Virus record (IMG/VR): IMGVR_UViG_3300000325_000026
Span: 1 to 22,418 of that record
Reading direction: 5' to 3' (one strand)
Source of the DNA: a virus
DNA length: 22,418 nt
Shown: piece after piece, positions 1-18,826 of the stretch
How positions within the stretch are numbered: position 1 is the first letter of the stretch
Layout: every line of letters begins with the position of its first letter
Program-made: the position numbers and the translations under genes
Notes under the pieces: model-generated
Told to the model about the DNA's origin: nothing
Seen by the model: the letters and a program-made list of their open reading frames with translations, nothing else
Database searches by the model: none

Positions 1-102
1 GTTACATATACGTTTGTACAGGCTCATATGATGGATCAACAGTTATTTGGAAACGTGCCGCAATTAGTGCATACTAGGAATTATTATGACATATATGAAT
101 AA
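1..102 (+). CDS. C-terminal end of an unidentified protein (5' truncated)
   Basis: An open frame enters from the left edge of the window and runs 33 codons to a TAA at 100-102. Its final residues are HTRNYYDIYE. The fragment is too short to assign to a family. Its last 17 bases overlap the start of the next small ORF (ATG at 86), the kind of tight overlap seen across this window, which supports it being a real gene end. I do not recognise it. Confidence 0.5.
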   Translation, partial: VTYTFVQAHMMDQQLFGNVPQLVHTRNYYDIYE

Positions 103-169
103 ACAAGAATTTCAAAAGTTACAAGAAAAAAGTAGCATTAACGGCAATAACCTAAGGGAAAGGGATTAG
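86..169 (+). CDS. 27-residue peptide with the MN..EF..L N-terminal motif
   Basis: A very short ORF with a plausible ribosome-binding site (AGGA at 76-79, six bases before the ATG). The peptide begins MTYMNKQEFQKLQEK and ends at TAG 167-169, three bases before the next gene. Its start closely resembles the N-termini of the next two proteins (MNKDQFKNLQAK and MNTPQEFRKLIES). It is either a real mini-protein made mostly of that motif or the remnant of a longer paralogue cut short by a stop. The motif also resembles the capsid-targeting N-terminus of T4 internal head proteins; that link is inference. Confidence 0.4.
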   Translation: MTYMNKQEFQKLQEKSSINGNNLRERD

Positions 170-172
170 ACA

Positions 173-625
173 ATGAACAAAGATCAATTTAAAAATCTAC
201 AAGCAAAACTAGAGAGCATCTGGAACGAAGATAGTTTTATCGTCAATGATGCCCCAAGACAAGCGCCTGCAGGAACAGCAGGTCAGCCTGGCTCAAAGGG
301 TCCTAAAGATATGGTTGCTAGAGATGCTAGAAATCTGTCACCGGAGCGGAGAAAGAGGGACGCCTGGCGCATTTCCCAGGACCTGGCGAAGCTACGAGCT
401 TCGGGAATCCCGAAGCTACGTGCTGAGAAAGTAAAAAAAGAACAAGCAACAGTCTCTGAAGCAACACAAGGCCCAGGAGTAGATGCAGTAATGGAACTTA
501 TAGACATGGGCGTTAGCAAAGAAGACTTGTTTGATCAAATGATGCGTGATCACAGTGATGACGAGCTCTTGTCATTTGCAGACGATTACCGTCGTATGAA
601 TGACTTCCCTGGAATGGAAGACTAG
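173..625 (+). CDS. Hypothetical protein with MN..QF..L N-terminus and an internal palindromic insert
   Basis: A 150-residue protein with a purine-rich Shine-Dalgarno (AAGGGAAAGGG) just upstream. No family is recognised. Residues 1-17 (MNKDQFKNLQAKLESI) share a pattern with the ORFs on both sides. Residues about 24-45 are rich in A, G, P and Q, probably a disordered linker. Residues about 55-90 are strongly basic and arginine-rich and are encoded by an unusually GC-rich stretch full of palindromes. The C-terminal third is acidic with a helical pattern (VDAVMELIDMGVSKEDLFDQ). A small DNA-binding or internal virion protein is possible but unproven. The next gene starts eight bases after the stop. 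Confidence 0.8.
   Translation: MNKDQFKNLQAKLESIWNEDSFIVNDAPRQAPAGTAGQPGSKGPKDMVARDARNLSPERRKRDAWRISQDLAKLRASGIPKLRAEKVKKEQATVSEATQGPGVDAVMELIDMGVSKEDLFDQMMRDHSDDELLSFADDYRRMNDFPGMED
363..420. repeat. Nested palindromes in a GC-rich in-frame segment
   Basis: Inside the gene at 173-625 the sequence holds overlapping inverted repeats. CCAGG-A-CCTGG lies at 376-386. CGAAGCT-ACG-AGCTTCG lies at 387-403. A 10-bp arm palindrome at 397-417 runs from AGCTTCGGGA to TCCCGAAGCT around one central base. The 10-mer CGAAGCTACG occurs twice (387-396 and 411-420). The segment is much more GC-rich than the surrounding AT-rich gene and keeps the reading frame. It looks like an inserted palindromic element of the kind that can sit in-frame inside coding sequence; its identity is unknown. 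Confidence 0.6.
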
Positions 626-633
626 GAACTAAG

Positions 634-1029
634 ATGAACACACCACAGGAATTTAGAAAACTAATTGAATCTATAGAAGTCCAGGAAGCAGCAGACGGTC
701 CTAAAGAGCAACTCATGGACATCATGGAACAACTACGCCAACTATCCGCCGAGGCTGCTGGTATTATGGCAGAGCACTTCCCCCAAGCTCATCAGCAAGG
801 CGATGCATACGGTGCATTTAATTTTGGTAGCAGTAACAACCAGTATGACACTTCATTTGAAAGCATTTTAAATTCTTTAGACGATGAGAGTGATAGCAAT
901 TTTGAAGATGCTGCTAATGAATTAGATAGTCTAATTAGAAGCGGCATGGATGATGAACAGGCCCTTCAGAAAGTTGCCAGTGAATATGATGTTCCTATTG
1001 AAGAACTAGAAGATTACATGGGTAGATAA
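634..1029 (+). CDS. Hypothetical acidic protein; N-terminus resembles a T4 capsid-targeting sequence
   Basis: A 131-residue acidic protein. Its N-terminus MNTPQEFRKLIESIE has the same layout as the T4 internal-protein targeting peptide (pattern MKTYQEFIAEA), and it contains L-I-E followed by S, compatible with the gp21-type cleavage rule (L/I-x-E before a small residue). The middle is Q/A-rich and helical. Residues about 55-75 are rich in G, N, S and Q, and the C-terminus (residues about 88-131) forms acidic helices. No enzyme motif is visible. A head-internal or core protein is an inference from the N-terminus only. Stop TAA at 1027-1029 is followed by a hairpin region. Confidence 0.8.
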   Translation: MNTPQEFRKLIESIEVQEAADGPKEQLMDIMEQLRQLSAEAAGIMAEHFPQAHQQGDAYGAFNFGSSNNQYDTSFESILNSLDDESDSNFEDAANELDSLIRSGMDDEQALQKVASEYDVPIEELEDYMGR

Positions 1030-1049
1030 GAAACATATTGCATTAAAAG

Positions 1050-1091
1050 ACTCCTGCTAGTATAATATAAACATATTGCAGGAGTTTTTTT
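1050..1091 (+). promoter_or_regulatory. Terminator-like hairpin enclosing a promoter and masking the mazG ribosome-binding site
   Basis: ACTCCTGC (1050-1057) is the exact reverse complement of GCAGGAGT (1078-1085), giving an 8-bp stem with a 20-base loop, followed directly by seven T (1085-1091). This has the form of an intrinsic terminator. The 3' arm contains GGAG, the Shine-Dalgarno for mazG (ATG at 1092). The loop contains TATAATATAAA (1061 onward), a promoter-like -10 region. Read-through RNA would terminate or hide the ribosome site; RNA started in the loop would lack the 5' arm and expose it. The 12-mer AAACATATTGCA occurs at 1031-1042 and again at 1069-1080. Confidence 0.55.
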
Positions 1092-1502
1092 ATGACACAA
1101 ATTGATCTAAACAAATACAAAGAGTTTGTAGATGCTGTAACAAGCAAAGAGAGTAAAGCAAATAATGAATATATTATGCGGTGGACTACACTTGTAAACC
1201 AACGCAATGCTAACCTACCCCGAATGTTAACAGCATGCCTAGGCCTTAGTGCAGAAGCAGGCGAGTTTACTGAAATTGTTAAAAAAATTGTATTCCAAGG
1301 CAAACCAATGGATGATGACAATATTTTCCATATGAAGCGTGAGCTTGGCGATGTTATGTGGTACTGGATGCAGGCTTGTATGGCATTGGATCTAGATCCT
1401 AATGATGTTATTGCAGAGAATGTAAATAAGTTACAAGCAAGATATCCAGACGGAGAGTTTGATCCATACTACAGTGAGAATAGACAGGAAGGCGATCTTT
1501 AA
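1092..1502 (+). CDS. mazG: MazG-like nucleoside triphosphate pyrophosphohydrolase
   Basis: A 136-residue all-helical NTP pyrophosphohydrolase of the MazG type. These enzymes hydrolyse (d)NTPs, and possibly (p)ppGpp, to monophosphate and pyrophosphate. The metal-binding pattern is visible: GLSAEAGEFTEIVKK at about residues 51-65 (Glu55 and Glu58 in the first helix) and KRELGDVMWYW at 82-92 (Glu84, Asp87). The C-terminal NKLQARYPDGEFDP is typical of the short phage MazG proteins of marine T4-like phages. It is a single domain, so about half the length of E. coli MazG. Its start is set by GGAG at 1081-1084, which sits in a hairpin arm. The next gene begins one base after the stop. Confidence 0.93.
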   Translation: MTQIDLNKYKEFVDAVTSKESKANNEYIMRWTTLVNQRNANLPRMLTACLGLSAEAGEFTEIVKKIVFQGKPMDDDNIFHMKRELGDVMWYWMQACMALDLDPNDVIAENVNKLQARYPDGEFDPYYSENRQEGDL

Positions 1503-1940: not shown

Positions 1941-2590
1941 TGATTACTATTAAGCATAAATTTTTAGCTAGCGTTGTTATTGAAGGGCAAATTTTGCCAA
2001 ATAGTTGGGATATGAATCTTAATTTAATTCCCAACGAGTCTATACATAATCATCATGATATTGCAATTGCTACTGATAGAGTAAACGTGTGGATTGAAAG
2101 CATGCTTGACAACAGTATGCTTGTAGGGCCACAGGATATGTTAACACTTAAAGAAATGTCCATGCATCCTTTTGCTATTGGTGTTCATCCACTGCCTGAC
2201 GAGCCGTATGATAGGATATTATCAATTTGCTTATACACTAAAATTAGTAGTATAATGGAGAATAAGATGTTTGTAGATAGCATCTGGCTTGAGAGTTACC
2301 AGAGTGAAGGAATTAGTCACACATATTGCTCTGATGACGGTGATACAGCATTGTTAAAAAATCTAGCAGTGCCAGGACAAGAAGAATTTGCTGAGTATTG
2401 GTACAGGAAAGATCCAGTGTTCTTCAGAGTAGACAATGAAGGTGTTACTCTTACTGAGCAAAGTTGGAAAGACCTTGGATTATCATTTGATGCTGCTAAT
2501 ACGTCGGATGGAAAGGTAGTGCCAATTACAAAAAGTAAATTTAAGCCAAGAATTATCCCTGGCGATAAAGGAGATGACAGCATTGCTTGA
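1940..2590 (+). CDS. Hypothetical protein (216 residues)
   Basis: A 216-residue soluble protein in the mazG gene string, coupled to the previous gene through TAATG. It is acidic and has many aromatic residues, with a mixed alpha/beta pattern, for example FLASVVIEGQILPNSWDMNL near the start. The basic C-terminus (about residues 193-216) looks disordered. I see no catalytic motif, signal peptide or membrane segment. The 3' end overlaps the next gene by 17 bases. Function unknown; its place between mazG and a polymerase-like fragment does not settle its role. Confidence 0.75.
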   Translation: MITIKHKFLASVVIEGQILPNSWDMNLNLIPNESIHNHHDIAIATDRVNVWIESMLDNSMLVGPQDMLTLKEMSMHPFAIGVHPLPDEPYDRILSICLYTKISSIMENKMFVDSIWLESYQSEGISHTYCSDDGDTALLKNLAVPGQEEFAEYWYRKDPVFFRVDNEGVTLTEQSWKDLGLSFDAANTSDGKVVPITKSKFKPRIIPGDKGDDSIA

Positions 2591-3095
2591 ATATGATTTA
2601 TACGGCAGACAAATTTACTCGCATGATGATGCAGTAAATGCCTTGTATATTAATCCAAATCTCGACCTAAGAAGTTTAGATATTAGAGATGTAGAACAAT
2701 TTAATCGTGCTAGTGCGTTACTATACACTGGAACAAAATTGGAAAGCGCAGAAACACCAGAATGCACACCTGAAGAGTATCACAAGATGAATCAGCAAAA
2801 TTGGCATATGCCGGTTGAGTATAAAGATATAGACATAGCAAAGTGGTGTTTAGACAGATGTGAAAGTGATGAACAAAGACAACGTGTAGGAACAGAGTTA
2901 CTTATGTATCAGGAACGAGATCTATTTTCTCTACTACAGTTCCTATGTTACATGGTTGATAAAATGAGGGAACATAATATTGTATGGGGTGTAGGTAGAG
3001 GATCAAGTGTAGCAAGTTATGTGCTATACTTAATCGGCGTACACAAGATTGATAGTTTATATTATGATCTTGACGTAGCAGAATTTTTACGATAA
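2574..3095 (+). CDS. Orphan fragment resembling bacterial DNA polymerase III alpha subunit (DnaE-type)
   Basis: A 173-residue protein. Its C-terminal third (about residues 106-173) closely follows the DnaE segment around the conserved glycine-rich motif: ELLMYQERDLFSLLQFL, then NIVWGVGRGSSVASYVLYL (residues 135-153), then YYDLDVAEFLR at the end. In bacterial DnaE the matching text reads GPGRGSAAGSLVAY...FERFLNPER. The protein stops just before the place where DnaE carries its catalytic aspartates, so it should not polymerise alone. The N-terminal 100 residues are not recognised. T4-like phages replicate with a family B polymerase, so a family C fragment is unexpected. A nucleotide or 3'-end binding role, or interference with the host enzyme, is speculation. 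Confidence 0.75.
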   Translation: MTALLEYDLYGRQIYSHDDAVNALYINPNLDLRSLDIRDVEQFNRASALLYTGTKLESAETPECTPEEYHKMNQQNWHMPVEYKDIDIAKWCLDRCESDEQRQRVGTELLMYQERDLFSLLQFLCYMVDKMREHNIVWGVGRGSSVASYVLYLIGVHKIDSLYYDLDVAEFLR

Positions 3096-17269: not shown

Positions 17270-17285
17270 AATGAAAGGATACATT

Positions 17286-17624
17286 ATGAAACTAGTAACA
17301 GCAATCATCAAGCCCTTCAAGCTGGATGAGGCTAAGGAAGCTCTGGAAGGTATAAACATCTATGGGCTTACAGCTTCTGAAGCAAAAGGGTATGGTAGAC
17401 AAAAAGGTCACACGGAATTATACCGTGGGGCAGAATACACAATAGATTTCCTCCCAAAAATTAGGTTAGAAATGGCAGTAGCTGACAATCAAGTAGAGTT
17501 AGTGATCGAGTGTCTATCCGCAGTTTTGAAAACAGGAAAAATAGGCGATGGTAAAATTTGGACAACACCAATTGATACCATGGTAAGAGTAAGAACAGGA
17601 GAAACTGGGGAGAACGCATTATGA
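17286..17624 (+). CDS. glnK: PII nitrogen-regulatory signalling protein (GlnK/GlnB)
   Basis: From this ATG the protein has 112 residues, the same as E. coli GlnB and GlnK, and begins MKLVTAIIKPFKLDEAKEAL. AAAGGA lies six bases upstream. The ATG at 17271, after a hairpin-loop AGGAG, would add five residues and is an alternative. The T-loop reads YGRQKGHTELYRGAEY with Tyr51 in the uridylylation position, and the B-loop is TGKIGDGK (83-90). TTPIDTMVRVRTGETGENAL completes the family. PII senses 2-oxoglutarate, ATP and ADP; GlnK-type proteins plug AmtB. Every key residue is kept, so it should be functional. It overlaps amtB by ATGA, the usual bacterial glnK-amtB order. Confidence 0.95.
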   Translation: MKLVTAIIKPFKLDEAKEALEGINIYGLTASEAKGYGRQKGHTELYRGAEYTIDFLPKIRLEMAVADNQVELVIECLSAVLKTGKIGDGKIWTTPIDTMVRVRTGETGENAL

Positions 17625-18826
17625 GTGAATTACATTATGCCCTAGATACATTTTATTTCTTACTCAGTGGCGTGTTAGTCATGTGGATGGCAGCAGGCTT
17701 TACTATGCTAGAAGCTGGCATGGTACGTACAAAAAACGCAAGTGAAATTGTAATGAAGAACTTTGCTTTATATGGAGTAGCATGTATTATGTTCCTCTTT
17801 ATAGGGTATAACATTATGTATGGCACTCCAGGCGATTTGTTTGTGGGTGGTGACCACAAAGCAGCAACAGCAGATAACTATTATTCAAAATTAAGTGACT
17901 TTTTCTTCCAACTAGTATTTGTTGCAACAGCAATGAGTATTGTAAGTGGAGCAGTTGCAGAACGTATGAAGTTGTGGGCGTTCTTAGTTATTGCAGTAGT
18001 TGTAACAGGAGTTATCTATCCTATCCAAGGAAGCTGGAGTTGGGGTGGAGGCTGGCTTAGCGATTTTGGATTTAGCGACTTCGCTGGTTCAGGTATTGTG
18101 CATATGTTTGGTGGAGCCACTGCATTAGCAGTTGTTTTACAATTGGGTCCACGCAAAGGCAAGTATAGCAAAGACGGAAAGCCACAACCTATAATGGGTA
18201 GCAACTTAGTACTAGTAGGATTAGGCACATGGATCCTATGGATGGGTTGGTTTGGTTTTAACGGTGGATCACAGTTAAAATTAAGCACACTTGCTGATGC
18301 AAATGCAGTAGCGCAAATATTTGTTAACACAAACCTTGCGGCGGCCGGTGGATTACTGGCAACAATGATTGTTGCAAAAGTACTCACGGGCAAAACAGAC
18401 TTAACACTTGCACTCAACGGGGCACTTGCTGGTCTTGTTGCTATTACAGCAGACCCACTCAGTGGTAGTGCTATGGTATCAACTATTATTGGTGCTATAG
18501 GCGGTGTTATCGTTTACTTTAGTATTATTGGTTTAGATAAGTTAAAGATTGATGACGCAGTGGGTGCTATAAGTGTGCATGGTGTTGTAGGCATATGGGG
18601 CGTATTAGCAGTGCCCTTAACAAATGCTGATGCAACAATTCTTGCTCAACTTGCAGGCATTGGTGCTATAGCTGGTTTTACATTTGTAACTACAAGTGTA
18701 TTTGTTTTTATAGTTAAGAAAACAATGGGAATTCGTGTTAGTGTAAAAGAAGAACACGAAGGATCAGATATAGAAGAATTAGGGGTAACAACATATCCAG
18801 AGTTCAAAATGTCGGCTAAATTTTAA
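17621..18826 (+). CDS. amtB: Ammonium transporter AmtB
   Basis: A 401-residue polytopic ammonium channel, expected as a homotrimer with about 11 transmembrane segments per subunit in the host inner membrane. The family signature is intact: MLEAGMVRTKNASEIVMKN (29-47), SWGGGWL before DFAGSGIVHMFGGATAL with Asp153 and the first pore histidine His161, WFGFNGGS (210-217) and AISVHGVVGIWG with the second pore histidine His320. It has no long signal peptide, unlike E. coli AmtB. Overlap with glnK (ATGA) implies coupled translation. A terminator follows eight bases after the stop. It should raise ammonium uptake of the infected cell under PII control. Transfer from a bacterial host is likely; the base composition now looks like that of the phage. 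Confidence 0.96.
   Translation: MSELHYALDTFYFLLSGVLVMWMAAGFTMLEAGMVRTKNASEIVMKNFALYGVACIMFLFIGYNIMYGTPGDLFVGGDHKAATADNYYSKLSDFFFQLVFVATAMSIVSGAVAERMKLWAFLVIAVVVTGVIYPIQGSWSWGGGWLSDFGFSDFAGSGIVHMFGGATALAVVLQLGPRKGKYSKDGKPQPIMGSNLVLVGLGTWILWMGWFGFNGGSQLKLSTLADANAVAQIFVNTNLAAAGGLLATMIVAKVLTGKTDLTLALNGALAGLVAITADPLSGSAMVSTIIGAIGGVIVYFSIIGLDKLKIDDAVGAISVHGVVGIWGVLAVPLTNADATILAQLAGIGAIAGFTFVTTSVFVFIVKKTMGIRVSVKEEHEGSDIEELGVTTYPEFKMSAKF

Follow-up and report, generated by a model that had tools for sequence, protein, structure and literature searches.

Two small genes, ORF2 and ORF3, on a 22,418-bp DNA fragment of a marine jumbo phage are best explained as accessory genes in an exchangeable slot, which closes a transcription unit containing virion-type genes as well. 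The N-terminal part of their proteins is likely, from the sequence comparisons described below, to be modular and exchangeable. It is quite possible, if still tentative, that both are exchangeable accessory proteins that are targeted to the phage head, or processed in it, by means of a divergent propeptide. They fall outside the capsid-targeting sequence (CTS) family of phage T4 as that family is defined.

Phage lineage and wider gene content

The window is the whole IMG/VR record fragment. Judged by the clamp loader (54% identity), its closest cultured relatives are the Pseudomonas jumbo phages Paride and PA5oct (Arenbergviridae, Wroclawvirus), and its gene order from mazG onward (mazG, DNA polymerase III fragment, GroES-like, clamp loader, PhoH, Clp ATPase) is Paride-like. 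Paride differs from the window in having no N-terminus that matched in our scan, and its enrichment in CTS-like starts is not significant. Elsewhere in the window, positions 2574-3095 encode a 173-aa DNA polymerase III alpha-like (NTPase domain) protein, a fragment-sized homologue whose position is conserved in relatives. A P-II-like (GlnK-type) regulator adjoins an ammonium-transporter (Amt) gene at 17271-18826, both named by sequence appearance and not by family search. This pair, also found in L027 (100%) and G010 (L117, 62-65% identity), is a possible nitrogen-uptake auxiliary pair of the jumbo phage.

A variable gene slot upstream of mazG

The slot lies between a gene for a 243-aa protein and mazG (Table 1). 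The N-terminal 52 aa of the 243-aa protein resemble Atu_ph07 gp328, which is part of a virion cluster identified by mass spectrometry (CDS 284-329; PMC6102473) on the assumption that the CDS numbers of that paper equal gp numbers. An Ig-domain protein gene is also found upstream, and no terminator-like site occurs on the + strand between these two genes and the ORFs. Using the 243-aa protein as query, we retrieved and compared the slots of relatives at 79 loci. Many are empty, with a gap of 58-100 nt, while others hold ORF2-type, ORF3-type, FFRKY-type or other genes, and from this absence in relatives the slot proteins appear to be dispensable.

Small, acidic and helical proteins encoded directly 3' of the Ig-domain and 243-aa genes could be assembly chaperones or adaptors of the upstream fibre-like proteins. 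We consider this improbable. Relatives with 70-79%-identical 243-aa proteins carry no ORF2- or ORF3-type genes, so these are not needed for the 243-aa protein, and the swapped N-terminus described below would be unexpected for a chaperone.

The FFRKY-type slot proteins have a common start (M-x-x-Y-G-x-x-FFRKY-x-x-I-L), and the YGxxFFRKYxxIL part of it is found on unrelated bodies, as the body of the L004 protein is unrelated to those in L035 and L063. L026/L027, a contig with 99.6% identity to the window, carries an additional 342-bp stretch with a 107-aa FFRKY-type gene. In L004, which is 100% identical to the window over positions 1-89, this gene is flanked by two copies of a 17-nt repeat, of which the window has a single copy and no such gene. 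The start regions of slot genes are alike at the DNA level also. The repeat-bounded indel, taken together with the similar start sequence of ORF3, suggests without proving it that slot genes are exchanged by recombination at the start region.

Table 1. Features of the variable slot and its borders in the window
Feature	Position	Strand	Remarks
3' end of upstream virion-type 243-aa gene	1..77	+	Complete in L004 5163-5894
17-nt repeat ACTAGGAATTATTATGA, Shine-Dalgarno and start codon of ORF1	73..89	+	Comparison with L004
ORF1, 27 aa: tag-like MNKQEFQKLQ, then recombination scar	86..169	+	
Scar: out-of-frame copy of 243-aa gene 3' end and spacer (L008-type relatives), 6-nt insertion	125..175	+	
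ORF2, 150 aa: N-terminal helix, variable linker, V-S-E↓A, conserved acidic C-terminal domain	173..625	+	
ORF2 N-terminal helix MNKDQFKNLQAKLESI	173..220	+	Kept in relatives with differing linkers; predicted helix 3-19, low confidence
Invariant V-S-E↓A at linker/domain border, candidate protease site	452..463	+	V94, E96, A97 invariant
Similar start sequence ACTAGGAACTAAGATGA ahead of ORF3	621..637	+	Direct reading
ORF3, 131 aa, acidic, predicted all-helical; N-terminus MNTPQEFRKLIES; V-Q-E↓A at residue 18/19	634..1029	+	
Intrinsic terminator 3' of ORF3, between ORF3 and mazG	1041..1094	+	-20.5 kcal/mol, z -5.9, U tract
MazG-like pyrophosphatase, conserved right border of slot	1092..1502	+	Pfam 7e-10, phrog_229 7e-54; same neighbour in relatives
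Arrows mark candidate cuts.

ORF1 as a recombination scar

The initial annotation regarded the 27-residue ORF1 as little more than a targeting tag. Its start with Shine-Dalgarno support lies 9 nt upstream of the quoted MNK, giving a protein that reads MTYMNKQEF, and the second half of the ORF repeats, in a different frame, the 3' end of a relative's upstream gene. From base 125 the sequence aligns with the 3' end of the L008-type 243-aa gene and its spacer, with 44 of 45 aligned bases identical and one 6-nt gap (local score 35, shuffle maximum 14). By this alignment ORF1 is a junction scar in its second half and keeps only the start of one slot-type gene, so we do not regard it as a minimal tag; it is probably not a functional gene.

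A shared and swappable N-terminal helix

The three consecutive ORFs are all present with the N-termini first described for them, and the common pattern proposed then is upheld as above chance and exchangeable. We compared the best ungapped scores of 13-residue N-terminal stretches with a background of 1,992 predicted phage proteins. The ORF1-ORF2 and ORF1-ORF3 scores are matched by just 0.05-0.15% of unrelated N-termini (about 1 in 1,000), and the likeness of ORF2 to ORF3 by itself is weak and not significant (6%). Together with the ORF1 scores, it is the homologues bridging ORF2 and ORF3 that place the shared N-terminus above chance. The ORF3 homologue in L036 begins MNNDEFRSLQNKLASI, which is an ORF2-type start. 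When the 1,992 N-termini are scored with a position-specific scoring matrix (PSSM) built from the helix, this homologue takes second place after a plain ORF2 homologue, and all interior windows score lower. ORF2 relatives begin MDYKKLQEKIDAI or MDDQYRKLQEKIDAI. In L010 a third protein begins MNTPYTKEQFLSLREKMDAI and continues into a body that is not visibly related to the others. The pattern of the helix is F-x-x-L-x-x-K-[LIM]-x-x-I, which is amphipathic and is joined to the body through a variable linker. A search for further proteins with this N-terminus, as the initial annotation had proposed, located the helix in about 190 kb of close contigs at this slot and nowhere else. A pattern scan for the exact ORF2-type start returned only this phage group, plus two further matches that are internal or unrelated.

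Candidate cleavage sites and properties of the proteins

In all six linkers of ORF2 relatives, V-x-E↓A is found at the border between linker and domain, where shuffling gives an expectation of 1.4 (p=0.0005, which is optimistic as the sequences are related). Its conservation may simply mark the start of the domain. The corresponding V-Q-E↓A of ORF3 has an 18% chance of arising, and the L036 homologue has I-V-E↓D there. Both proteins are acidic, with a pI of 5.2 for ORF2 (4.1 for its conserved C-domain) and 4.1 for ORF3.

Searches of ORF1-3 against Pfam and PHROG gave no significant match, and tblastn in cultured phages gave weak matches only and no relatives. The predicted structure of ORF2 was too poor to use (pLDDT 56), and the helical model of ORF3 (pLDDT 73) matched no PDB fold at E below 0.001. 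We also considered the C-termini of ORF2 and ORF3 as similar UBA-like repeats, which was unsupported. As a separate observation, a GC-rich near-palindromic repeat, CGAAGCTACG...AGCTTCGGGA/TCCCGAAGCT, is located in frame within the ORF2 linker (382-424, + strand). The window and the otherwise near-identical L004 differ in this region, which L008 and L010 lack.

Comparison with the T4 capsid-targeting sequence

The T4 internal proteins IPI-IPIII and Alt, which carry a CTS cut by gp21, resemble the slot proteins in that a short shared N-terminus is placed on otherwise unrelated, optional proteins. In IPIII the first 10 residues suffice, with residues 4 and 7 serving targeting and residues 8 and 10 serving processing, and the T4 internal proteins are basic (PMC9026906). 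The slot helix differs in being longer (about 14-16 aa), in its acidic bodies and in the absence of the key residues at 4, 7, 8 and 10, of which F7 of ORF3 is the only match. The candidate site V-x-E↓A is located at variable distance, and V at P3 breaks the (L/I)-x-E rule for gp21 cleavage at the end of the CTS.

The initial annotation read these ORFs as carrying a T4-type CTS, cleaved in ORF3 at L-I-E, and took ORF1 for a bare tag. ORF3 does contain Q5-E6-F7 as well as L-I-E before Ser (LIE↓S). The latter is not kept in the L036 homologue, [IL]xE was not found among the first 22 residues of ORF2, and ORF1 is accounted for as a scar. V-x-E↓A, lying further downstream, is the stronger candidate for a cut. 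Because the key residues are absent, LIE is not kept, ORF2 has no early site and the proteins are acidic, we do not count ORF2 and ORF3 as members of the T4 CTS family, and the reading as originally stated is very improbable. A comparable propeptide idea is known from the head and ejection proteins of SPN3US and phiKZ, where propeptides are removed C-terminal to Glu by the prohead protease (PMC9026906), yet that protease is of a different lineage.

Prohead protease and T4-like starts in relatives

The initial annotation named a gp21-like protease as a check. Pfam Peptidase_S77, the T4-type prohead protease, is present in Paride and five large relatives; the window and the short contigs close to it, all of them fragments, contain none. 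The distant relative G010 carries a T4-type head module of portal, S77 protease and gp23.

Of 239 M[KR] proteins in five relatives, 15 have [IL]xE[AGS] within residues 5-14, compared to 1.2% of interior windows (p=5e-7), while other N-termini in the same relatives have [IL]xE[AGS] in 20 of 1,050 (p=6e-4); these statistics derive from our own simple gene caller, with approximate start codons. Examples include MKTFIDYLTE↓A, MRANEFLTE↓A and MKATDIIEE↓G. Clusters of small genes, one directly after another, that have T4-CTS-like starts (MKKLAEYFTE, MRVKDFITE, MRANEFLTE, MRIREITE and others) are found in L123 (7243-8920), L143 (5366-12878), L163 (1764-6177) and L131 (3500-7325), and these are better candidates for head cargo than the ORFs of the window.

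One member of a T4-CTS-like protein cluster is a 171-aa family whose N-terminus is similar to the slot helix. Its starts are of the kind MSDFFSLVQKLNAIEANE, and of the 10 distinct linkers behind them 7 contain [VIL]xE↓S (p=0.001, again optimistic for related sequences). A PSSM of this family placed the ORF2 relatives at 0.1-0.5% of interior windows and the L010 protein at 0.008%, with ORF1 and ORF3 only at 2-3% and the T4 CTS at random level. Another phage family, marked by DHEVQMAR (L187-L266) and with at least 447 relatives in IMG/VR, keeps E↓G ahead of its conserved part, and the sequence upstream varies from 8 residues to whole extra domains. The conserved [VIL]xE↓G junction was parsed in 26 of its 63 unique members, and all but one of these have V, L or I at P3 (V 12, L 9, I 4, T 1). 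In cultured phages the 171-aa and DHEVQMAR families have either no counterparts or hypothetical cyanophage proteins, those of the DHEVQMAR family being hypothetical only.

Proposed role of the slot proteins

The role that we favour, by inference, is that of a divergent head-targeting propeptide. The helix would dock the protein onto the prohead core so that it becomes enclosed, an S77 (gp21-type) protease would cut behind the Glu of [VIL]-x-E, which is V-S-E↓A for ORF2 and V-Q-E↓A for ORF3, and the acidic body would stay in the head, to be packaged and possibly injected. This reading is supported by the N-terminal swaps (L036, L010 and FFRKY), the empty slots and the indel, all of which are seen directly in the DNA, and also by the S77 protease and head module, the M[KR] sites, the E↓G family, V-x-E↓A in the ORF2 relatives and the [VIL]xE↓S sites of the 171-aa family. 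It is weakened by the absence of the protease from the window and close fragments, the tail- or fibre-like rather than head-like appearance of the neighbouring upstream genes, the acidic proteins and V at P3. The chance level of the ORF3 site, the 171-family PSSM result for ORF1 and ORF3, and shuffle p-values that assume independent sequences weaken it further.

A possible alternative, to which we give serious weight, is that the start is shared merely through duplication and short-repeat recombination, with the helix being an oligomerisation or host-protein-binding part of cytoplasmic proteins that targets nothing. The start regions are alike in DNA and apparently recombining, the slot is optional, ORF2 has no T4-type cleavage site near its start, and mazG and replication genes are located just downstream. 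Against this, conserved N-termini have been swapped between bodies that are unrelated, V-x-E↓A is invariant, and the separate 171-aa family in a T4-CTS-like cluster combines a similar N-terminus with [VIL]xE↓S.

A broader form of the head-targeting reading, for which the case is at present rather doubtful, is that marine T4-like jumbo phages have a second, helical class of head-targeting propeptide, swapped at a repeated ribosome-binding and start sequence, alongside the short T4-like starts of the same lineage. If true, the head cargo that uncultured jumbo phages carry could be recognised in their sequences by a helical or M[KR] start followed by [VIL]xE↓[AGS], and a simple exchange of candidate accessory cargo, through recombination at repeated starts, would have been caught between two near-identical phages. 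If false, a tempting analogy with T4 is still corrected, and a tag-like micro-ORF is shown to be a recombination scar.
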